From contig NZ_LT629845.1 of assembly GCF_900106785.1 (NCBI RefSeq), forward strand, positions 772,055-836,054: a stretch of DNA of 64,000 bases, in the 5' to 3' direction. Positions within the stretch are counted from its first letter, which is position 1. The number at the start of each line of letters is the position of its first letter. This document shows positions 3,608 to 64,000 of the stretch, in pieces. The DNA is from Prevotellamassilia timonensis (lineage in GTDB: Bacteria > Bacteroidota > Bacteroidia > Bacteroidales > Bacteroidaceae). Below the pieces are notes generated by a model. It saw only the letters and a program-made list of their open reading frames with translations, was not told the DNA's origin and made no database searches. The translations under genes were made by a program, and so were the position numbers.

Positions 3608-4636
3608 ATGACGCCCCAGGCTTTTGCACTATTCAAATGTCCTCACGAAAACGTATTTACGCGTATTGAACAATTCAGCAAGCCAAGGACTTTTCAAACA
3701 CTTGAAGATATACCAACGACAGGAGGCTATTTAATTGCACCTTTCGTTTGTTCAGAAGAATGTCCTATATTGTTTATAGAACCTGATGCAACGAGTGTAA
3801 GTGAGATAGAGCCAACTGCAGATGTTAGCGATATTGGCTTTGTAGATGACGCATTAGAAGAAAGAAGGGCATACAGTAAAGCTTTCAAATCTGTATCTGA
3901 GATGTTTGATAATAAGGCTATTAAGAAGCTTGTACTATCGCGCAGATTAAACTGTAAGTTGTCGTCAAACCTTGATGCTGAAAAATTATTTTTGAGAGCT
4001 TGTACTCTTCGACCTAACAATTTTGTTGCGCTTTGGCACACCCCAGTTTCAGGTACATGGCTTGTAGCAACGCCAGAGCCATTACTTGAGCGTACAAATT
4101 CTGTATGGCATACTGTAGCTTTGGCTGGAACACTGCCATGGAACGACAACAAAGACGCTTTATGGGACAACAAGAACAAAGAGGAACAAGTGCTTGTTAA
4201 GGATTTTATTGCAACTACACTCAAGCCAGTAACAGAGGATATGGATATTTCGCCTACATATTCGTTACGCAGTGGTAATATACAGCATTTGTGTAATGAC
4301 ATTACTTTTACATTGAAGGACAATGTTAATCTGTGCCAGGTGCTACAGACTTTACACCCAACTCCTGCGGTGTGTGGACTGCCACGCGAAAAATCAAAGT
4401 CGGCCATATTAGAAATAGAACCCACTTCCCGGTTTTATTATGCGGGATTTAGCGGACCATATTTGCTGGAAGAGCAGACCATGCTGTATGTATCATTGCG
4501 CTGCATGCAATTAAATGCAAACATGGCGACCCTTTATGCTGGCGGTGGCATCATGCCTGAAAGTAAGGAAAACGAAGAATGGGAAGAAACTGTTAGGAAA
4601 ATGGCGACCATGAGGCAGCTGATAAAACGAAATTAA
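3608..4636 (+). CDS. menF: Isochorismate synthase
   Basis: This member of the chorismate-binding superfamily converts chorismate to isochorismate, the entry step of menaquinone synthesis. The family end is clear: EIEPTSRFYYAGFSGPY, then a stretch with YAGGGIMPESKENEEWEET, which holds the chorismate- and Mg-binding residues. KKLVLSRRL near residue 105 is the start of the core domain. I place the start at the ATG at 3608 (342 aa). Upstream in-frame ATGs inside mazG (3569, 3584, 3593) are possible but would overlap that gene. The next gene, menD, follows after 7 bases, which supports the MenF role over entC or pabB. Confidence 0.88.
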   Translation: MTPQAFALFKCPHENVFTRIEQFSKPRTFQTLEDIPTTGGYLIAPFVCSEECPILFIEPDATSVSEIEPTADVSDIGFVDDALEERRAYSKAFKSVSEMFDNKAIKKLVLSRRLNCKLSSNLDAEKLFLRACTLRPNNFVALWHTPVSGTWLVATPEPLLERTNSVWHTVALAGTLPWNDNKDALWDNKNKEEQVLVKDFIATTLKPVTEDMDISPTYSLRSGNIQHLCNDITFTLKDNVNLCQVLQTLHPTPAVCGLPREKSKSAILEIEPTSRFYYAGFSGPYLLEEQTMLYVSLRCMQLNANMATLYAGGGIMPESKENEEWEETVRKMATMRQLIKRN

Positions 4637-4643
4637 AATAAAA

Positions 4644-6269
4644 ATGTATTGCGACACAACACAAGTAAACCAATTAACAGCACTACTCGTAGCTTACAAT
4701 ATACGCAATGCCGTGGTGTGTCCTGGGTCGCGTAATGCGACGATTGTTCATAATTTGTATGAAATACATCGACAAGGCAAAGTAAGCATACACCCTGTTA
4801 CAGACGAACGCAGTGCAGCATTTGTTGCCCTGGGAATGTCTTTGGCTACTCAAGAACCAACAATAGTGTGTGTCACATCAGGCACAGCATTGCTTAATTG
4901 TGTGCCGGCTGTTGCCGAGGCGTACTACCGACACTTGCCGTTACTTGTTATTTCGGCAGATAGACCACTACAGTGGATTGGCCAATATGACGGTCAGACT
5001 CTGCAGCAAACTGGTGCTTTGGAACCTTATTGTAGAACGGCACAAATCAATCCGCCACGAAGCGAAGGTGACTGCTGGGTTAATAATTTGCATATCAATG
5101 AGGCCCTTAATAGCCTATATCATGGTGAGGGCGGACCTGCACATATTAACGTGGCAATAGAAGAGCCTATGTTTAGCTTTAATACGGTGCAGTTGCCCAA
5201 TGAACGCGTAATTAGCGTAACTTGCCCTACAAGTAGCACTCCAATACCACAAAACATTGTTGACATTATAGCGAATGCTAAATTGCCAGTGCTCTTAATT
5301 GGCCAATATGAAAAGGGCGACATTCGTAAGGAAGTTGCTGATATCGTTGTAAACGAGCAGATGCTTGTATTGCCTGAAATTATATCAGATGTGCCAGGCA
5401 ATTATTTGATGAATGCTTTTGACTATCTTTCGACGCAAGCTGATGCATTAGAACCTGATTTGGTGGTGCAAATTGGAGGAAACTTTATCCACAAATCATT
5501 CAAAAGTCTGTTACGCAATACCTCATGTCGTGTAATACGAATAGACGAGGGACAAGGTTTGATAGACACTTTCTGCCATTTGCAATACAAAATTCAATCA
5601 GCTGTTCAGCCAGCCTTGGCACAACTATCAATGAAACTTCCCCGAAAGCATGAGGGTGTTGCCAAAGCTGAACGCAGGCTTGCCGATACCGCAAAGATAT
5701 TAGAAGAGGGATTATTGGCAGATGAGGAGCATTTGACAATGAATTGTGTCATTAGGCATTTGTATATGAAAATGCAAACACTCGCTTGTGATTATACATT
5801 GCATTTGGCCAACAGCTCATCAGTAAGAATAGCTGGCAATTATTTCAAGTCGGGTGTGCAACCAATCCTTTGCAACCGTGGCGTTAACGGCATTGAGGGC
5901 TCATTGTCTGCGGCTGTTGGATATGCGATGAAGATGTGGGGACTTAGCATTGTCATAATAGGCGATTTAAGTTTCTTCTATGATGCGAATGCCTTATGGA
6001 ACGTGTCACTACCGTCAAATCTGCGAATATTGTTGCTCAATAATAATCATGGCGGTATCTTTGACCAGTTGAAGGGATTAGAGAAGTCACCGGCACGCGA
6101 CAAATTTATAGCTGCTGGACAACAGACTTATACGGCTGCAGGAATTGCACAAACATTCCATATAGGTTATACTGGCGTTCAAAATTTTGACGACCTGCGT
6201 CCTGCCTTAGAACATTTTATAGTACCCGATGGCGGTTCACAAATTGTTGAGGTATTTGTTAATGGGTGA
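4644..6269 (+). CDS. menD: SEPHCHC synthase MenD
   Basis: Thiamine-diphosphate enzyme that joins isochorismate and 2-oxoglutarate to give 2-succinyl-5-enolpyruvyl-6-hydroxy-3-cyclohexene-1-carboxylate in menaquinone synthesis. It has 541 residues, normal for the family. The conserved cofactor glutamate is in VTDERSAAF (E55). The PGSRNA motif near residues 27-32 and SADRP near 109 are typical MenD features. The ThDP/Mg loop GDLSFFYDANALWN begins at residue 440. It forms an operon with menF just upstream. The later pathway genes (menB, menC, menE, menH) are not in this window. Confidence 0.95.
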   Translation: MYCDTTQVNQLTALLVAYNIRNAVVCPGSRNATIVHNLYEIHRQGKVSIHPVTDERSAAFVALGMSLATQEPTIVCVTSGTALLNCVPAVAEAYYRHLPLLVISADRPLQWIGQYDGQTLQQTGALEPYCRTAQINPPRSEGDCWVNNLHINEALNSLYHGEGGPAHINVAIEEPMFSFNTVQLPNERVISVTCPTSSTPIPQNIVDIIANAKLPVLLIGQYEKGDIRKEVADIVVNEQMLVLPEIISDVPGNYLMNAFDYLSTQADALEPDLVVQIGGNFIHKSFKSLLRNTSCRVIRIDEGQGLIDTFCHLQYKIQSAVQPALAQLSMKLPRKHEGVAKAERRLADTAKILEEGLLADEEHLTMNCVIRHLYMKMQTLACDYTLHLANSSSVRIAGNYFKSGVQPILCNRGVNGIEGSLSAAVGYAMKMWGLSIVIIGDLSFFYDANALWNVSLPSNLRILLLNNNHGGIFDQLKGLEKSPARDKFIAAGQQTYTAAGIAQTFHIGYTGVQNFDDLRPALEHFIVPDGGSQIVEVFVNG

Positions 6270-6377
6270 TTGTCCATTATAATAATATCTGACATTTTGA
6301 ACACCATCATGGCATGCAAAGTTTAGCTGTAACGCAAAATAAACAATCTGAAAATGTAGCGTAACACAAAAAATAAC

Positions 6378-6385
6378 TAACTTTG
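6378..6385 (+). promoter_or_regulatory. Possible -7 box for pfp
   Basis: TAACTTTG fits the Bacteroidetes -7 consensus TAnnTTTG and lies 111 bases before the pfp start. No good TTTG -33 element is seen at the usual spacing, so this is tentative. Confidence 0.4.
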
Positions 6386-6495
6386 CAAAGGAAATATTTC
6401 GGGATTTTTCATGTAGTTGGCCTGTGCTGACAATACACGGAATATCACTTAATAATACGAACCAACTTAAAAGACGAATATTAACTTCAATTTTC

Positions 6496-8136
6496 ATGGA
6501 AAAAAGCGCATTACAAATTGCACGTGCTGCTTACCAGCCCAAGCTGCCCGCAGGCTTGCGTGGCAATGTAAGTATCAAAGAAGGTGAACCCACTCAAAGT
6601 GTAGGTGATCAAGAGGAAATCAAGAAATTGTTCCCTAACACATATGGTATGCCTTTGGTAGAGTTTGTTCCCACAAACGAAAAGAAAGAGTATGCTCCAA
6701 TGAATATTGGCATCATCCTTTCGGGTGGTCAGGCTCCTGGCGGTCACAATGTGATTTGCGGTCTGTATGATGAACTCAAGAAGCAGAACCCCGCAAACAA
6801 GCTTTACGGCTTTTTGATGGGACCTGGCGGTTTGGTTGACCACAAGTACATCGAACTTACTGATGCCATCATAGACGATTACCGCAATACTGGTGGTTTC
6901 GACATGATTGGTTCTGGCCGTACTAAACTTGAGGAAGAAGATCAGTTTGAAAGTGGCTTGAAAATTATTCGCGAGTTAGGCATCAAAGCTGTCGTGATTA
7001 TCGGTGGTGATGATTCGAATACTAACGCATGCGTGTTGGCTGAGTACTATGCTGCTCATAACTGCGGCGTACAAGTTATCGGTTGCCCTAAGACTATTGA
7101 TGGCGACTTGAAAAATGACCAGATCGAAACTTCATTCGGTTTTGATACTGCATGCAAGACTTACGCAGAGGTTATAGGTAACATTCAGCGTGATGCCAAT
7201 TCAGCACGTAAATATTGGCACTTTATCAAGTTGATGGGTCGCTCAGCCAGCCATATCGCATTGGAATGCGCCCTTCAGTGCCAGCCTAATGTATGTATCA
7301 TCAGCGAAGAGGTTGAAGCAAAGAACCAAACTCTTGATGACATCGTAACATATATTGCTGAGATTGTTGCAAAACGTGCAGCTAATGGTAACAACTTTGG
7401 TACTGTATTGATTCCGGAAGGTTTGATTGAATTCATTCCTGCAATGAAAAAGCTTATTGCTGAATTGAATGACCTTTTGGCTACACCGGAAGCTGCAACT
7501 GTAGCAGCAGCTGAACAACGCGCCTGGATTCTTGGCAAATTGTCAAAGGAGAATGCTGCTATCTACGATAGCCTTCCCGAAGGCGTTGCCAAGCAGCTTA
7601 CAATGGAACGTGACCCTCACGGAAACGTACAAGTCTCGCTCATTGAAACCGAGAAGCTCCTCTCTGAAATGGTTGGCAACAAACTTGCTGCATGGAAGAA
7701 GGAAGGTAAGTTTGTAGGCAAATTCTCTGCACAGCACCACTTCTTTGGTTACGAGGGTCGTTGCGCAGCACCTTCAAACTACGATGCAGACTATTGCTAT
7801 GCACTCGGTACAAGCGCAGCACAGCTCGTTGCTAATGGCAAGACTGGCTATATGGCTATTGTAAAGAACACTACTGCACCTGCAGAACAATGGGTAGCCG
7901 GCGGTGTGCCTATTACTATGATGATGAATATGGAACGCCGTAACGGCAAGATGAAGCCCGTTATCAAAAAGGCTTTGGTTCGTTTGGATGGTGCTCCTTT
8001 CAAGAAGTTTGCTGAGCATCGTGCAGAATGGGCTGAAAAAACTTGCTTCGTTTATCCTGGTCCTATTCAGTACTGGGGTCCATCTGAAGTTTGTGACCAA
8101 TGCACTGCTACTCTGAAATTAGAACAGGGTAAATAA
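6496..8136 (+). CDS. pfp: Diphosphate-dependent phosphofructokinase
   Basis: This 546-residue long-type phosphofructokinase phosphorylates fructose-6-phosphate with pyrophosphate, a reversible glycolytic step. The deciding motif is GGDDSNT at residues 170-176. The second aspartate, where ATP enzymes have glycine, marks PPi use. PKTIDGD at 198-204 carries the catalytic aspartates. The long C-terminal insert (about 300-450) is normal for this clade. I start at the ATG at 6496 ([13 protein letters not shown]). The 24 codons upstream are AT-rich and unlike the family N-terminus. A terminator hairpin follows at 8175-8238. Confidence 0.95.
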
Positions 8137-10086: not shown

Positions 10087-10149
10087 TTTTTCTTATTTGG
10101 GCATAATAAATTGGGTAGAGCTTGTCTATAGCTTGATGGACCGTCCTAC

Positions 10150-10320
10150 TTATTGTACTCCTTGGTATAATACCCAGACCATATTCGCAAGAACATAGAC
10201 TTCATTAGTAGGACTATACTGATACGTACGAATAGTGCCGCAAAATCCTTCTACGCTCTTTCGCATATCTATGCCTTGAGTATAGAGATGGTAGATGTTA
10301 TTTTCGTTCAGACAAAACAT
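10150..10320 (-). pseudogene. IS66 Orf2 (TnpB) remnant
   Basis: A 56-codon minus-strand ORF beginning MFCLNENNIYHLYTQGIDMR and continuing KSVEGFCGTI matches the start of IS66 TnpB proteins. These carry a Y-x-x-xxxDMRKSxxxL-type motif, and NEVYV precedes the normal FLNRRR segment. After VYV the frame is lost, and the expected RRRNRIKLL continuation is absent or displaced. This is a short, broken copy about half the normal size. An IS66-like terminal sequence lies upstream at 10365-10390. The identification is by recognised motif, not by a search. Confidence 0.6.
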
Positions 10321-10364
10321 AAGTACTTTTTGTCTGTAAAATTCAGACTTTATAGGAGCCTTTT

Positions 10365-10390
10365 CAATACGACTTGCATGGGATGCTTAC
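10365..10390 (-). repeat. IS66-like terminal repeat, copy 1
   Basis: Read on the minus strand this 26-mer begins gtaagcatcccat and matches 60181-60206 in 23 of 26 positions. Here it points into the TnpB remnant. At 60181 it points into the TnpC-like remnant. This is the arrangement expected of terminal inverted repeats of related IS66 elements. Confidence 0.6.
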
Positions 10391-57530: not shown

Positions 57531-60140
57531 ATGATTTATCCCGAAAATTTTGAACGTAAAATAGGCTTTAACGAGATACGCACGTTATTAAAAGGACGAT
57601 GTTTGTCAAGTCTTGGCACAGAATGGGTTGATAAAGAACTTCATTTTATGCACGACTTCGAACAAATAAAACAAGCCCTTGACGAGGCAAGGGAATATAA
57701 AATATTTGAAGAACAGACTGACGAGGAGGTTGAAACAGAATTTTTCGATGTACGCGAGGCTCTGTTACGTGCGCGTCCAGAACGCACATTTCTCGAAGAG
57801 CTCGACTTGTTTAATCTTAAACGCTCCATCGCATCCGTTCTGTCGTATGCAAAACTTTTTACCCAAAAGGTTGACGATGAAGCCCTTTCTACAACCGATG
57901 CGGACACCGAGAATAACAGAGGACAAATTAAGTACCTTTATCCGGCCTTGGGCAAGATGGCATGCGACGTGGCCGTATTTCCCGACATCATACGACGCAT
58001 TGACAATATCTTAAACAAATATGGCAAGGTAAAAGATACAGCATCGCCAGAATTGCTCTCATTGCGTCATCAAATTGAAATAACGACCAGAGGTATATCC
58101 CATAGTTTGCGCTCCATCATCAACGAAGCTCAAACATCTGGGTATATTGATCGCGATGTAACCCCTACTCTGCGCGACGGGCGTTTGGTTATACCCGTAG
58201 CCCCTGCATTGAAGCGCAAAATAAAGGGCATCGTACATGATGAGAGTGCAACGGGAAAGACTGTCTTTATCGAGCCATCGGCCGTGGTTGATGCCAACAA
58301 CAAAATTCGCACACTCCGTGCAGCCGAGCGCCGGGAGGTTATTCGTATATTGCAGGAAATAACCATTGAGATACGTCCACACATCCCTGAACTCATAAGT
58401 TCATTGCACTTTTTGGCTCATGTTGATTTTTTACGAGCATTAAATGCATTCAGCAATAGTTTTGGCGCTATTGTGCCGAACATACAGCCAAAACCAAGCA
58501 TCAGTTGGATGCGTGCTATACACCCATTGCTACAACACTCGTTAGCCAAGCATGGAGGAAAGGTTGTGCCACTTGATGTAGAACTGCGCCCAGGACAGCG
58601 TATTCTGCTTATATCTGGCCCAAATGCTGGCGGAAAATCTGTCTGTCTGAAAACTGTTGGATTGTTGCAATATATGCTGCAATGCGGCATGCCTGTACCT
58701 GCCGGCGAAGACTCGTGTCCAGGCATTTTTGATGATATCATGATAGATATTGGCGATGAACAGAGCATCGAGAACGACTTGTCAACCTACTCATCACATC
58801 TTCAGAACATGAAAGTTATGATGAAGTCTGCAAATTCGCGTAGTCTCCTGCTTATCGACGAATTTGGAGGGGGTACTGAACCACAAATTGGCGGCGCAAT
58901 GGCACAAGCTATTCTTAAGCGTTTCATTGACAATTTGAATTTCGGCATTATTACCACCCACTATCAAAATCTGAAACATTTTGCAGAACAGACACGTGCT
59001 GTAGTAAATGGTGCCATGCTTTACGATAGCAAACTGATGCAGCCATTATTCAAACTTAAGGTTGGTAATCCTGGTAGTTCTTTTGCCATCGAAATTGCAC
59101 GAAAGATGGGTATCCCCGCCGACGTGATTGATTATGCTTCAAAATTGGTTGGGAAAGATTATGTCATGAGCGACAAATATGTACAGGACATTGTTCGTAA
59201 CAAAGAGTATTGGGAGGCTAAGCGCCGAAACATTACCTTAAAAGAACAACAATTAGAAAGTACCATCGCACGGTATGAACGGGAGATGACAGACTTCCAG
59301 CTGGAGCGCAAAAGGGTGATGGCTGATGCGAAAGCCGAAGCCAAACACTTAATAGAACAGTCGAATGCCCGTATTGAAAATACAATTCGAAACATTCGCG
59401 AGGCGCAAGCTGAAAAGGAGAAGACTAAAAATCTAAGGAACGAACTTGCCGAATTTAAGACTCAAATTGAAACAGATACCGACGAGCAAGACCGCATTGC
59501 ACGCAAAATTGCCAAAATTCAACGTCGCCAACAGCGTAAAGCTGACGGTGGCGACAGTGCTAAAGCCAAAAGCGCGGCTGAACAAAAAATTGCAGCAACC
59601 AAACTCCGCAATCTTTCTAACAGCTGTAATAGTCAGTCGTCTGTATCGCCTTCAAACAATAACAAAGTCCTACGTGCCGGGAGTTATGTACGCATCATAG
59701 GGCAATCTTCTATTGGACGAATTGAAAGCATATCTGGCAAAAGTGCGCGCGTATTATTCGGCATGCTCTACACCCAAGTGCCTGTTAGCCGCCTCGAATC
59801 TTGCGAAGCACCCAAAGAGGAAAATACTGCTCTCACGCAAAATGCCACGTTCGTCAGCAAGGAAACGCGCGACGCTATGTACGAGAAACGCCTGCATTTC
59901 AAGCCTGAGATAGACATTCGTGGCATGCACATTGACGAGGCATTGACTGCTGTGTCATATTTTATTGATGACGCCATACAACTGGAACAATCAAAAGTGC
60001 GCATATTACATGGCACTGGCACTGGGGCCTTGCGCGAGTTGGTACGCAATTATCTAAAAACAGTACCCGGTGTCAAACATTTTCACGATGAGCATGTACA
60101 ATTTGGCGGTGCTGGCATAACAGTGGTTGACCTTGCATAA
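57531..60140 (+). CDS. mutS2: Endonuclease MutS2
   Basis: MutS2 (869 residues) is a MutS-like ATPase lacking the mismatch-recognition N-terminus. It acts on branched DNA or on collided ribosomes, depending on species. The lever/clamp region runs from about 1 to 330. Walker A GPNAGGKS is at 363-370, and LLIDEFGGGTEPQ follows near 442. A coiled coil fills about 555-690. The C-terminal Smr domain has DIRGMHIDEAL (about 794) and LHGTGTGALRE (about 826). Length is slightly above the norm because of the basic linker (about 665-710). The stop is followed by the IS66-like remnant. Confidence 0.96.
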   Translation: MIYPENFERKIGFNEIRTLLKGRCLSSLGTEWVDKELHFMHDFEQIKQALDEAREYKIFEEQTDEEVETEFFDVREALLRARPERTFLEELDLFNLKRSIASVLSYAKLFTQKVDDEALSTTDADTENNRGQIKYLYPALGKMACDVAVFPDIIRRIDNILNKYGKVKDTASPELLSLRHQIEITTRGISHSLRSIINEAQTSGYIDRDVTPTLRDGRLVIPVAPALKRKIKGIVHDESATGKTVFIEPSAVVDANNKIRTLRAAERREVIRILQEITIEIRPHIPELISSLHFLAHVDFLRALNAFSNSFGAIVPNIQPKPSISWMRAIHPLLQHSLAKHGGKVVPLDVELRPGQRILLISGPNAGGKSVCLKTVGLLQYMLQCGMPVPAGEDSCPGIFDDIMIDIGDEQSIENDLSTYSSHLQNMKVMMKSANSRSLLLIDEFGGGTEPQIGGAMAQAILKRFIDNLNFGIITTHYQNLKHFAEQTRAVVNGAMLYDSKLMQPLFKLKVGNPGSSFAIEIARKMGIPADVIDYASKLVGKDYVMSDKYVQDIVRNKEYWEAKRRNITLKEQQLESTIARYEREMTDFQLERKRVMADAKAEAKHLIEQSNARIENTIRNIREAQAEKEKTKNLRNELAEFKTQIETDTDEQDRIARKIAKIQRRQQRKADGGDSAKAKSAAEQKIAATKLRNLSNSCNSQSSVSPSNNNKVLRAGSYVRIIGQSSIGRIESISGKSARVLFGMLYTQVPVSRLESCEAPKEENTALTQNATFVSKETRDAMYEKRLHFKPEIDIRGMHIDEALTAVSYFIDDAIQLEQSKVRILHGTGTGALRELVRNYLKTVPGVKHFHDEHVQFGGAGITVVDLA

Positions 60141-60180
60141 CCGCAAGGACACCACAAACAATCTGCACCACAAAATTATG

Positions 60181-60206
60181 GTAAGCATCCCATACAGGCC
60201 GTATTG
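60181..60206 (+). repeat. IS66-like terminal repeat, copy 2
   Basis: This 26-mer, beginning gtaagcatcccat, matches the complement of 10365-10390 in 23 of 26 positions. It faces the TnpC-like remnant and so marks the outer end of that relic. Confidence 0.6.
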
Positions 60207-60210
60207 TAGA

Positions 60211-60258
60211 AAACAAATAAGCCAAAGTCAATCTATCAGGACTTTGGCTTATTTGTTT
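60211..60258. terminator. Perfect 18-bp hairpin, possible bidirectional terminator
   Basis: aaacaaataagccaaagt at 60211-60228 is the exact complement of 60241-60258, with a 12-base loop. A T-rich tail follows on the plus strand and an A/T-rich one on the other. It overlaps the stop codon of the IS66-like remnant and could end mutS2 transcripts. Confidence 0.65.
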
Positions 60259-60591
60259 TATACGTAATGGTAAGGTAATAATGTTTCTGGATTGTAATTA
60301 TTTTGCGCAGCGATTTTGAGAAACGTCTTGGATAACCAATCTTTGGGATTTATCCCCAAAAGTTCAAAGGTTTGGATAAGCGTTGATATCACAGCTGATC
60401 GTCAAAGCGTTTCTTTGATAATATTATATCGTTTCCGCCTTTTGGTTCCAAGTCTGATACCTTCCATGAGTAGTACCATTTTATCCCATCTTATATCTAC
60501 AAAAGCAGTTGCATTTTTGATGATGGAATATGGAAGGACTGAGCCTGCCTTGTTCAAGCCGTTTGTAATATACTACAAACCCTCCACGTTC
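60258..60591 (-). pseudogene. IS66 TnpC-like C-terminal remnant
   Basis: On the minus strand the last open stretch reads AVISTLIQTFELLGINPKDW, LSKTFLKIAAQNNYNPETLL, then PYHYV and a stop at 60258. This is the form of the IS66 transposase end (typically an x-LLxTCKLNGINPxxWL...LLP pattern). An in-frame TGA (in ...IIKETL) and other losses occur upstream, and only about 110 codons remain. The matching terminal repeat is at 60181-60206. Identified by pattern only. Confidence 0.55.
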
Positions 60592-62034
60592 TCAATATTC
60601 AAAGATCCAATCAAGATTATCATAAGGGCACCACTTTGCGTAAAGTTCATTTATATAGTAAGCGACGCCAAAGCGTTCCTTGCCCAACTCTTTAGCAGAC
60701 TTATATAGTCTAATATCATTTTGCCTTTCGAGTGTATCCATTCCAGCCTCTATCCATTGCCCAATATTATCACCGTCTTCGTGAAGCATCATTTCTCCAT
60801 GCCAAAAATCAGCTTTATGTGTACCTTCATACTCCTTAGGCATTTCCATATTCACTTCCGAATAATACTGACTGAGGTATTTATATGGTGATTCCAGATA
60901 AAGCCAATTGTGTTCAACAGAATATAAAGCTTCATCGATACCTGTTACAGATGAACCATTCTCATCGGACTCTTGAACATCAAATATTCGATAAGTCCCG
61001 TCTTCCAATTTTCTAAATCTAAATCTTCCAAGAAGAACAAAGCTTCTGCAAACATATATCCATCCATTATCTAGATAGAAACTGTATCGATCTTCCCATC
61101 CTGGCTCAAACGACTTGATGATACGCCGATGTAACTCAGGAGAGATGACCTTTTCTTTAAAAGAGGTTGTTATATGAGTGAAGTGATGATATTCGATATT
61201 TGTACGAGCATCATTCTTTGCCCCAAATACCCTTGCCCATTCTTTTTGTCGTTTAATCTTTGATATAGTTCTATGATACCGTTCGTTGATCTTCAAAGGT
61301 ATGCAAATATCATTGACACAATGATTTTCATCAGCGTATTTCTTCTTGATGAAGTAGTTGCGACATCCATACATAGCTTCAGCGATAGCTCCTGTTAATG
61401 TACCCAAAAGTCTTTTATTTCCTTCCATTCTCATGGCATTGTGCAAAGCACTACCGAAGTCGAAAGCATTGTAAAATGCATCCCAAGCTCTGAGAATGTA
61501 GGGTATAGGAGATTCTTGATTCCGCCAGTCCCAATCGTGACGGCAACCTTTGAAAACACCTCCAAGTTCTGCATAGACTTCATCCTTTGTCTTACCATTT
61601 CTCAACAAGTATATTATCTTACGAAGGAATTGTAAGGAGTACCATGCTTCTTTCTCAATGTTTTGTTCAAAAATTAGACCGCAGTTGTCCTGATTTTTCT
61701 CTTGATACCATGCGCAAGGAATCACTCTTACCATTGCAATTCCTATGGCCATTGTATTATAGTTGTAGTTATAGTCTTGCTTTTCAATCCACTCCTTAAC
61801 TCCTTCAGAGTAGCATACGATATCGTCATGGACAACACGAAACCATGGACGAATGTATTCCTGATATTCTGCTTCGTTCATGAATAGATTAAAGTCAAGT
61901 GCATCTGCAGTTGCAAGCACAGAAAGCCCAAATTCAGAGAGCAATGCTTTCTCTGAAATCAAGAATGGGTAAAACTTCTCATGATCGTTTTCCCAAGTCC
62001 ATGCTGCTAAGTCACCAATAATTGCGCCAATCAT
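60592..62034 (-). CDS. ADP-ribosylglycohydrolase-like protein, motif-poor
   Basis: The 480-residue protein starts MIGAIIGDLAAWTWENDHEK, the typical opening of ADP-ribosylglycohydrolases. It keeps a later AIGIAMVRVIPCAWY (the usual GNGAAMRVSP site) and TLTGAIAEAMYG near 212-223. The metal-binding DD (usually FTDDT near residue 40-60) is replaced by SVLATADALDF. The GDxDT motif near 205 is replaced by EGNKRLLGT. It is therefore probably not an active hydrolase, but may bind ADP-ribose or have another role. Residues about 230-480 are an extension I do not recognise. Last gene of the four-gene cluster, 20 bases after the EVE-like gene. Confidence 0.6.
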   Translation of the reverse strand: MIGAIIGDLAAWTWENDHEKFYPFLISEKALLSEFGLSVLATADALDFNLFMNEAEYQEYIRPWFRVVHDDIVCYSEGVKEWIEKQDYNYNYNTMAIGIAMVRVIPCAWYQEKNQDNCGLIFEQNIEKEAWYSLQFLRKIIYLLRNGKTKDEVYAELGGVFKGCRHDWDWRNQESPIPYILRAWDAFYNAFDFGSALHNAMRMEGNKRLLGTLTGAIAEAMYGCRNYFIKKKYADENHCVNDICIPLKINERYHRTISKIKRQKEWARVFGAKNDARTNIEYHHFTHITTSFKEKVISPELHRRIIKSFEPGWEDRYSFYLDNGWIYVCRSFVLLGRFRFRKLEDGTYRIFDVQESDENGSSVTGIDEALYSVEHNWLYLESPYKYLSQYYSEVNMEMPKEYEGTHKADFWHGEMMLHEDGDNIGQWIEAGMDTLERQNDIRLYKSAKELGKERFGVAYYINELYAKWCPYDNLDWIFEY

Positions 62035-62054
62035 ACAAAGTTTCTGTTATAGTG

Positions 62055-62450
62055 CTACTCAAAGCATTTATCGATGAAGTTTATCTGTTCTTTATTGAGA
62101 ACAGAATACTGAACATATCTACTGATACCTATCGATTCCAGTTCATTATATCCAAGTTCTTCGCCTTCATACATGGCTGCAACAGGAGTGAACTCAAAGC
62201 AATCATTATCAGGAACAAATGGAGCCAACCAACATTTTTCGTCTTGTCTTGGCACGCTTGTGTTGGTTACTTCTAATTTGTATCTGATTTGATAATGTCC
62301 TTTACCTGACATAAAAAGATACACGATGTCACCAACATTAAGTTTCTTGTCAGACTTGTACCAATAGAGTTTGCCGTATAAAGCAATACTCTTTGTATGA
62401 TCAAGGAAACTTTCATTTCCTTTAAGTAATACGTGCTTAATTGCTTTCAT
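62055..62450 (-). CDS. EVE/PUA-like domain protein
   Basis: The small protein (131 residues) has the layout of EVE or PUA-like domains: MKAIKHVLLKGNESFLDH, WYKSDKKLNVGDIVYLFMSG near 30-50, and HYQIRYKLEVTNTSVPR near 52-68. These domains bind modified bases in DNA or RNA and are often joined to nucleases in defence loci. The C-terminal part (YNELESIGISRYVQYSVLN) resembles the helical cap seen in some such proteins. Its start is one base after the stop of the nuclease-like gene. Assignment by pattern, not by search. Confidence 0.6.
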   Translation of the reverse strand: MKAIKHVLLKGNESFLDHTKSIALYGKLYWYKSDKKLNVGDIVYLFMSGKGHYQIRYKLEVTNTSVPRQDEKCWLAPFVPDNDCFEFTPVAAMYEGEELGYNELESIGISRYVQYSVLNKEQINFIDKCFE

Positions 62451-62451
62451 A

Positions 62452-63210
62452 TCAATCTTCTGAACCTTTGTGTTTAATATCTTTGAAAAACTTTGCCATG
62501 ACTATCAATCCTGGATATGCTCTATCATTGTCATAATAAACCATATCTTTATCCATCTCCCATACAGACATAAAATCTGGAGATACAACTGTCTTTAAGT
62601 CTTTGTAAAGTCGGTCAAGCATCACTCTTTCTTGTGAGATATAAGTCTCGCGTATATTGTCAGTCGGATTTGTGCTGCTGTGAGACGTAACGAAATGCAG
62701 ACCAAGGCGAATTACACCTTTTGTTTTTTCCTCAAAGTGTTTTATATCGTCTTTTACATTTCCAAGTTGAATGATATTCATGGTTCTCCATCTTTGCAGT
62801 AAGCGCCCATCGTTTGTGCATGGTGTTTCGAAATTGTCGTAACTATGCTTCACTTCAATAACAACGCTGTAGTCTTTATAAATACACCAATAGTCAATAC
62901 GTCCTTGAGAGTTCTCAATTTCTAATCCCTTCTTTTTGCTGTTTCGAGTCATCGGATATTCAGCAAACGCAAGTCCTTTGCAGAGTGAAACCAATACTGG
63001 CATAATCAGAGTGTCTAATTGACGTTCTCTAAAGACAAATGGTGGCTCATAAATATTATACTTGGTAGAGTTGAAAGCCAATGCATGTTTAGCCATACCT
63101 ATGAAAAGTTTCTTTGTCAATTCATAGGCAACATCATAATATGCTTCATCAGATTCCTTTGCCGAGAAAAGAAAACTTTGGGAGTTTCTTATTGAGTGAC
63201 GAAATTTCAT
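62452..63210 (-). CDS. PD-(D/E)XK nuclease-like protein
   Basis: The 252-residue protein has a restriction-endonuclease-like core: GRIDYWCIYKDYSVVIEVKH places D106 and E119-x-K121 in the PD-(D/E)XK arrangement, with E62 or nearby acids as the extra ligand. The N-terminal half is helical (YYDVAYELTKKLFIGMAKHA). There is no HsdR-like helicase. The C-terminus has MSVWEMDKDMVYYDNDRAYP, of unknown role. Second gene in the cluster, 18 bases after the DUF3800-like gene. I infer a nuclease from the motif. No target can be read from the sequence. Confidence 0.65.
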   Translation of the reverse strand: MKFRHSIRNSQSFLFSAKESDEAYYDVAYELTKKLFIGMAKHALAFNSTKYNIYEPPFVFRERQLDTLIMPVLVSLCKGLAFAEYPMTRNSKKKGLEIENSQGRIDYWCIYKDYSVVIEVKHSYDNFETPCTNDGRLLQRWRTMNIIQLGNVKDDIKHFEEKTKGVIRLGLHFVTSHSSTNPTDNIRETYISQERVMLDRLYKDLKTVVSPDFMSVWEMDKDMVYYDNDRAYPGLIVMAKFFKDIKHKGSED

Positions 63211-63228
63211 ACCAACTTGAAAATTAGG

Positions 63229-64000
63229 TTATTCTACTTCTATTAGTTTTTTGAGCGTACTATATTCAGGATCATCTAACATGAAAATAGTGCCATTACT
63301 TCCTAATCTAATTGCATTATAGCACAGTTTCAATCGATGTAGCATAGGTTCAATTATCCCTTGTGTCTTTTTTATGAAGTCTTCGACCTCGCTTTTCTTG
63401 GATGGCAACTTGTAACCTTTATTGCTACTTGCTATTATCACACCATAATCTCGGAGCTTGGCTATAATTCTATTTCGGAAAGACTGAGTTGAAAGTCTTT
63501 CAAATCCCTTTCGTTCCAAATCATTTTGCAGTTCTTGTGTTGAAATGTATCTTCTCACAGAATTGTTCATGAAACGGAATAAAAGATAGTCAAGAACTGC
63601 AATTTGCATTTTTGAATTTTCATCAGCGTCTTTATTCTCGAATTCCTGCTTGAATGCCAACGCTTTTCTAAAACATAAGTTAGCTACAGTTGCATCATCC
63701 CGACTATCAAAATTAATCTGATCTTCCACACGGAATGTTACTGGATCTCTTGGAAACTCCTGTATTCCTATGATTTTCTTGCCTAAATATGTTTTGTAAT
63801 TAGAACCCTCAGCCTTACTTTTTTTGTTTTCATCATAGCAGAATGCTAAACATCCAGACATAATGTCTGCTAATTGAACAAGAACACCATGTTCACTTTT
63901 ATTAAAACGGAAATTAAACTCATCAAATAAAGAAAGAGCAGGATTATGGTCCTTAATATATTCTGAAAATGATTGCATAAACTCATTGCTACCAGTTTCA
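63229..64000 (-). CDS. DUF3800-like protein with C-terminal winged helix (partial)
   Basis: The frame is open to the window edge, so the N-terminus is missing. The visible 257 codons include ETGSNEF before the Met at 63978. VLVQLADIMSGCLAFCYDE near residue 32 of that Met-started reading matches the end of the DUF3800 (RNase-H-like) fold, where LADxxAG is typical. A winged helix follows: ISTQELQNDLERKGFERLST, then FRNRIIAKLRDYGVIIASSN. It is the first visible gene of the minus-strand cluster. The RNase-H catalytic acids of DUF3800 would lie mostly in the missing part, so activity cannot be judged. Confidence 0.55.
   Translation of the reverse strand, partial: ETGSNEFMQSFSEYIKDHNPALSLFDEFNFRFNKSEHGVLVQLADIMSGCLAFCYDENKKSKAEGSNYKTYLGKKIIGIQEFPRDPVTFRVEDQINFDSRDDATVANLCFRKALAFKQEFENKDADENSKMQIAVLDYLLFRFMNNSVRRYISTQELQNDLERKGFERLSTQSFRNRIIAKLRDYGVIIASSNKGYKLPSKKSEVEDFIKKTQGIIEPMLHRLKLCYNAIRLGSNGTIFMLDDPEYSTLKKLIEVE

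Follow-up and report, generated by a model that had tools for sequence, protein, structure and literature searches.

A compact cluster of four genes was located at one end of the analysed window, a stretch of 64,000 nucleotides of Prevotellamassilia timonensis (G000:C17:772055-836054; genome size 3.48 Mb in 17 contigs). All four genes were encoded on the minus strand and were separated by gaps of 18, 1 and 20 bases, so the ORF (open reading frame) coordinates agreed with the arrangement given in a first-pass annotation of the window. Gene 1 (63229-64000; 63229-63999 in the ORF list) encoded a DUF3800 protein and was open at the window edge. The complete gene continued past the window (L002 5284-6441, where L002 is the locus extending beyond the edge) and encoded 385 amino acids (aa) from an ATG; a longer frame with a TTG start was also present. 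The cluster further comprised gene 2 (62452-63210), which encoded a PD-(D/E)XK-type nuclease candidate of 252 aa, gene 3 (62055-62450), which encoded an EVE/PUA-like protein of 131 aa, and gene 4 (60592-62034), which encoded a predicted pseudo-ADP-ribosylglycohydrolase of 480 aa. The GC contents of genes 1-4 were 0.349, 0.365, 0.354, and 0.384, respectively, compared with a median of 0.446 for the 27 mechanically called window ORFs of at least 300 aa, among which gene 4 itself was counted.

The cluster sat inside an IS66 relic and not merely beside one, which is new relative to the first-pass annotation. The adjacent relic reported there was present, but it was wider than claimed, with IS66 ends on both sides of the cluster. 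An IS66-type terminal inverted repeat (TIR) of 26 bp, GTAAGCATCCCATACAGGCCGTATTG, was found at 60181..60206 on the plus strand (L002 2236-2261), and the opposite inverted repeat lay outside the window at L002 6621-6646 (C17:836620-836645). Both TIRs were nearly intact (26/26 and 25/26). The same repeats bounded two full-length copies of the insertion sequence (IS) of 2138 bp, C17:402568-404705 and 441121-443258, which shared 100% identity and were flanked by 8-bp target-site duplications; the one copy tested coded for TnpB_IS66 and DDE_Tnp_IS66. In alignment with a full-length copy, three segments of the IS remained in the cluster element, at 88-92% identity: bases 1-76 before gene 1, and bases 240-439 and 1923-2138 after gene 4. 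The two pieces after gene 4, both on the minus strand, corresponded to the 3' part of tnpB (60396..60596, 90% identical) and to the tnpC 3' end with the right end of the IS (60181..60396, 88% identical). IS bases 77-239 and 440-1922 were missing. Since this loss took the beginning of tnpB and almost the whole of tnpC, the cluster element should not make its own transposase.

A 7-bp direct repeat, AATTATG, was positioned flush outside both TIRs (left copy, 60174..60180; right copy, L002 6647-6653, outside the window). The left flank ended AAATTATG and the right flank began AATTATGC. Among 3,000,000 pairs of positions drawn at random from the window, 335 had a flush match of 7 bp. Among the 58 genomes of the genus, the IS66 element was present in its own genome only; it was found in none of the plasmids searched, and its TIR in none of the viral contigs searched. 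Other IS66 relics with TIRs existed in the same genome. A further IS66 relic occurred in the window at 10095-10390, where IS bases 1-210 and 1177-1250 were retained at about 91-92% identity.

The search for relatives covered 344 genomes of the order for each of genes 1, 3, and 4, and 61 relatives and 395 genomes of the phylum for gene 2, the own genome included each time. Full-length gene 1 scored 50.9 bits against Pfam DUF3800 (PF12686; cut-off 21, E 3.5e-13), so the family first proposed from a truncated reading holds for the whole gene; the part inside the window stayed below the cut-off (19.5 vs 21 bits). In favour of the winged helix proposed for the same protein there was only a weak match, with the TIGR00122 model of the BirA DNA-binding domain (E 0.022). 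Residues 5-205 matched the PADLOC candidate PDC-M04A (E 4.5e-9). D7, E8, E56, D129, and D174 were invariant in 4/4 aligned sequences, and these acidic residues may be catalytic.

Gene 1 had three strong relatives in the order, and all of them adjoined defence-type genes: a type I restriction enzyme (E 0) in G061, a GajB-type helicase (E 1.7e-223) in G170, and a ThsA protein (E 4.5e-175) in G298. G062 and another site in G061 gave weak matches, which were left out of this neighbour tally. In G170, the next gene encoded a DUF6602 protein with PADLOC nuclease matches, and this pair loosely parallels genes 1 and 2. Gene 1 relatives were also detected in nine plasmid records, and the three of these that were read contained none of genes 2-4. 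Viral contigs yielded no match to the single gene 1 sequence and two contigs in the alignment search. An IMG/VR contig of 67.7 kb (L067) carried, at 4983-7697, a DUF3800 relative and then a PDC-M36A-type protein (E 4e-25).

The D...ExK motif of gene 2 (D106, E119, and K121) was invariant in 3/3 sequences. Relatives of gene 2 were found in G039, close to the end of a contig, and on the phage-like IMG/VR contig L065. The L065 relative (4137-4907) was 51% identical and lay among genes that resembled tape-measure and endolysin genes by eye. Gene 2 had no match outside its own genome in the 395 phylum genomes and none in the phages or plasmids searched; in the viral contigs, the single sequence found none and the alignment search found one contig. 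The L065 relative was partly overlapped by an ORF resembling, by eye, a nucleoside deoxyribosyltransferase.

Gene 3 had no significant library match. A profile of six gene 3 sequences aligned with the EVE profile in hhalign at a score of 34.6 (probability 65.7), compared with 22.3 for the best of 200 column shuffles, 13.2 for the reversed profile, and at most 15.7 for four unrelated alignments. By this profile comparison only, gene 3 appears to be EVE-like. Relatives were found at five other places in the order genomes: at a second position in the own genome (52% identity) and in G057 (52%), G257, G376, and G214. Restriction- or defence-type genes were located by PADLOC within about three genes at 3/5 of these loci. 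The G057 relative was near type III-like, DndH-like, and PbeA-like proteins, and a type I methyltransferase occurred near the G257 relative with two genes between. By eye, the G214 relative carried a fused helix-turn-helix. Gene 3 was found in none of the plasmids searched, nor in the viral contigs by the alignment search. The second EVE-like gene of the own genome (L060 8860-9258; C17:880859-881254) was positioned upstream of the genes for a DrmD-like helicase and a type IIG restriction enzyme-methyltransferase, in divergent orientation.

Residues 1-232 of gene 4 matched canonical ADP-ribosylglycohydrolases, and the start assigned to this family in the first-pass annotation was thus borne out, though the metal-binding aspartate pairs and the TH motif were lost. 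The middle part, to about residue 378, was common to the gene 4 clade, and the last 71 residues (410-480) recurred in a 292-aa protein of G237 (44%). The family model PF03747 gave only E 0.21 for gene 4 and E 0.00034, below the cut-off, for its relative in Bacteroides sp. ET71. The close relatives were those of G115 (43%) and ET71 (41%). Distant relatives in the order genomes matched parts of residues 1-266 at 25-32% identity.

The characteristic motifs of this family include aspartate pairs that bind metal. According to PMC9503650, the active site of the family holds a binuclear metal centre and a conserved TH motif. In the three clade members, the TDDT position read SEFG, SIYS, and SDYA, and the GGDSDT position read EGNKRL, QGNLNL, and PGNRQV. 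The position of THNHPEG had no TH in 3/3, and one acidic residue was left at the TDDT position in 2/3. NGSAMR was partly kept in gene 4, as GIAMVR. The distant relatives kept TDD(T/S) in 15 of the 16 that covered it and the last motif in 16/17. These comparisons and counts were read from the alignment by eye. Because the metal-binding aspartate pairs and the TH motif were lost in all three members, gene 4 is predicted to be a pseudoenzyme, and an active ADP-ribosylglycohydrolase was dropped as a candidate. The clade kept the framework around the lost sites, which suggests that the whole clade is dead and conserved rather than that one gene has decayed.

In all three clade members, a small number that came entirely from searches starting at gene 4, the immediately preceding gene encoded a defence-type nucleic-acid protein. 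In the cluster, this protein was the EVE-like gene 3 product. In G115, it matched PDC-S02 (E 3e-149); its end was of the NucS type (NucS_C E 1.6e-8), and its N-terminal domain had no Pfam EVE match. In ET71, it was a HIRAN protein (Pfam E 1.7e-6; PDC-M03B E 5e-7), and, further upstream, one gene combined EVE and AAA domains (Pfam EVE E 8.6e-7). Two distant matches to gene 4, of about 25% over residues 1-231, occurred in Pseudomonas plasmids, and the alignment search found none in viral contigs. A wide contig scan yielded one relative; such a scan detects close relatives only and leaves rarity unproven. In G237 (L041 5032-8201), the protein sharing the gene 4 C-terminus stood between an ASCH-like protein (weak Pfam match) and a PDC-S02-type protein, all three coming after a type I specificity subunit.

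The next gene beyond gene 4 was the ORF at 57531-60140, which is mutS2 as read by eye, in agreement with the neighbour named in the first-pass annotation. After mutS2, neither the cluster nor the IS66 element was matched in 15/15 genus relatives, which had other genes there instead (up to 10 kb compared per relative, in one only 5.8 kb). An empty site was not demonstrable, as the GH20 gene was missing from this position in the 15 relatives and the genes following mutS2 were different ones. The idea of a defence island at mutS2 was replaced by that of a cassette between IS66 ends. On the other side of the cluster, past the GH20 gene and adjoining mnmE (names by eye), L002 9370-12473 contained two tandem transposase units, 1624 bases apart, with identical ORF translations. 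After mnmE, L002 14052-19942 contained integrase-, helix-turn-helix-, replication-, and Fic-like genes by eye and resembled an integrated mobile element. The cluster as a part of this integrase region was considered and dropped, since that region lies beyond the GH20 gene, the two transposase units, and mnmE.

Our preferred reading, which is held tentatively and falls somewhat short of probable, is that the four genes form a defence-type cassette enclosed by the two ends of an IS66 element whose own transposase is lost. The genes would have arrived with an IS66 copy or have been captured by one, and the cassette would have been assembled recently. Judging from their families and neighbours, genes 2-4 may work together as one part. 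The EVE-like protein of gene 3 would recognise a modified base or another mark in invading nucleic acid, and the PD-(D/E)XK protein of gene 2 would cut the nucleic acid so marked. The dead ADP-ribosylglycohydrolase would serve as a ligand- or protein-binding gate, which may bind ADP-ribose-like groups and should not hydrolyse them. The DUF3800 protein would be a second nuclease, acting alone. With the full-length IS66 copies present in the genome, the cassette could be mobilised in trans. The genes may have entered either before or after the IS reached this site.

Several observations weigh against the cassette reading. The four-gene set was in no other genome searched, and relatives of two of the four families were side by side in no other genome of these samples. 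When all four proteins were checked at 19 fetched relative loci, none of the loci had two of the families. G039 contained a gene 2 relative and a distant ADP-ribosylglycohydrolase on different contigs, and G057 contained an EVE-like gene and a distant ADP-ribosylglycohydrolase on one contig, about 136 kb apart. The gene 2 relatives of G039 and L065 were without genes 1, 3, or 4 nearby. The first-pass annotation had named a lack of linkage in other genomes as grounds for refuting its reading, and in the samples searched the four-gene set was indeed unlinked elsewhere. A conserved four-gene system was consequently rejected, and the label "system" is not earned. Because the set was unseen in the other genomes searched, the cluster resembles a kit that was put together locally and may be portable, and not a system that is already established.

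The assignments of the single proteins are also open to objection. Gene 2 retains the invariant motif on which its nuclease assignment was based, but it matched no curated family above the cut-off: PDDEXK_9 reached 14.3 vs 25.5 bits (E 0.041), and the best match among the three family members, that of the G039 relative (E 0.0011), was still below. The EVE/PUA-like character first claimed for gene 3 is supported by a profile comparison that beat all 200 shuffles; on the other side, Pfam EVE (PF01878) matched 0/6 gene 3 family members, and a PF01878 search of the own genome found none. No clear defence neighbour was seen by eye for the gene 3 relatives in G376 and G214. For the N-terminal domain of the PDC-S02 protein of G115, the likeness to EVE was weak: it scored 26.3 at probability 15, compared with 18.9 for the best of 100 shuffles. 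Genes 2-4 had no PADLOC match at E 1. Profile searches of the PDB with the four genes gave no credible match (best E 0.86, 0.1, 0.048, and 0.027, to unrelated proteins), and a search with the three-sequence gene 2 profile gave none at all. The AlphaFold2 model of gene 3 alone and the structure prediction for gene 4 with one relative had mean pLDDT (predicted local distance difference test) values of 35.6 and 36.6, respectively, both too poor for a fold search, and no fold was confirmed for the four proteins because both models were poor. Finally, the flanking repeat of the cluster was 7 bp, compared with 8 bp at the full-length IS copies. An 8-bp duplication that had lost one base would explain it.

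The absence of linkage elsewhere fits an accidental pile-up, in which unrelated defence-type genes collected at a site that gathers insertions and are co-located without cooperating. We regard this as a serious possibility, though a doubtful one. In the searched genomes, no two of the four families were linked, each family was found singly beside other systems, often known defence genes, and other mobile elements were close by, namely the two tandem transposase units and the integrase region of L002. Against an accidental assemblage stand the same-strand packing with such short gaps inside one pair of IS66 ends, the uniformly low GC content, and a gene 4 clade that follows a defence-type nucleic-acid protein in 3/3 cases. 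The IS itself allows a different history, in which the cluster was inserted into a resident IS66 copy, or recombined with it, and was never IS cargo. This may well have happened, even if we would not call it probable. The IS part was heavily deleted, and the original insertion of the IS would have given a flanking repeat of the same appearance. Against it, TIRs that are almost intact around an interior that is mostly gone are the outcome expected from selection for end-driven mobility; this point is not decisive, because other relics in the genome keep their TIRs too.

It is unlikely, in our view, that the genes serve a role outside defence, such as stress or the control of plasmids or transposons, with the DUF3800 protein acting on RNA. 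DUF3800 has been linked to putative non-coding RNAs (PMC10910872), and the defence function of all four proteins is a prediction from sequence. On the other hand, relatives of genes 1, 3, and 4 adjoined defence-type genes, and to this extent the defence association of the first-pass annotation was upheld. A more specific proposal, which we consider improbable, is that genes 2-4 constitute a new kind of restriction module. A dead ADP-ribosylglycohydrolase would read phage-induced ADP-ribose marks or ADP-ribose-type signals and license an EVE-guided PD-(D/E)XK nuclease, and the module would be spread between IS66 ends. If that were true, the signature of such a gated module would be the dead clade behind EVE-like, PDC-S02, or HIRAN proteins.

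If the cassette of our preferred reading does defend its host, IS66 ends would enclose a whole multi-gene defence set and not one resistance gene, and a predicted inactive ADP-ribosylglycohydrolase would join the toolkit of nucleic-acid restriction. The pseudo-ADP-ribosylglycohydrolase clade provides a testable marker for finding further modules of this type.

No publication joining these four parts was found in a literature search in which the coverage of subscription papers was limited. PDC-M names a multi-gene PADLOC candidate. Gene 1, itself a DUF3800 protein, resembled PDC-M04 in matching component A; genes 2-4 matched no PADLOC model, and no further PDC-M04 component was recognised beside gene 1. 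In PMC10910872, DUF3800 was reported beside Cas12a2, and the AlphaFold2 model of another DUF3800 protein was described as showing the RNase H fold and a catalytic rearrangement. Archaeal standalone EVE proteins are reported in PMC7641849 as partners of helicase-nuclease restriction systems; "DUF3800" and "ADP-ribosyl" were absent from its main text. Immune systems centred on ADP-ribosylglycohydrolases with nuclease partners have been predicted (PMC9503650), and the cluster is similar to them in combining a domain of this type with putative partners of the restriction-endonuclease fold. It differs in that gene 4 is without the metal-binding and TH motifs, and in that the four genes gave no match to a Nudix, WYL, phosphatase, or chaperone family.

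IS66 elements that carry passenger genes, the tIS66 elements, are described in PMC12888890, with ISPa75-fosZ as an example. The cluster element is like them in its IS66-type TIRs beginning GTAAGC, the passenger genes between, and a repeated, putative target sequence at the ends, and unlike them in having four cargo genes instead of one and a flanking repeat of 7 bp instead of 8. A further difference is that it has no intact transposase genes, only 3' pieces of tnpB and tnpC. PDC-S02 unites a weakly EVE-like domain and a nuclease in one chain. Genes 2 and 3 are separate, and neither clearly resembled the G115 protein (best pairwise BLASTP E 0.075 and 0.021), yet in G115 the PDC-S02 gene directly precedes the gene 4 relative, in an order analogous to that of genes 2-4. 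The nearest parallel to the cluster is the gene 4 relative of G115 behind its PDC-S02 nuclease protein.

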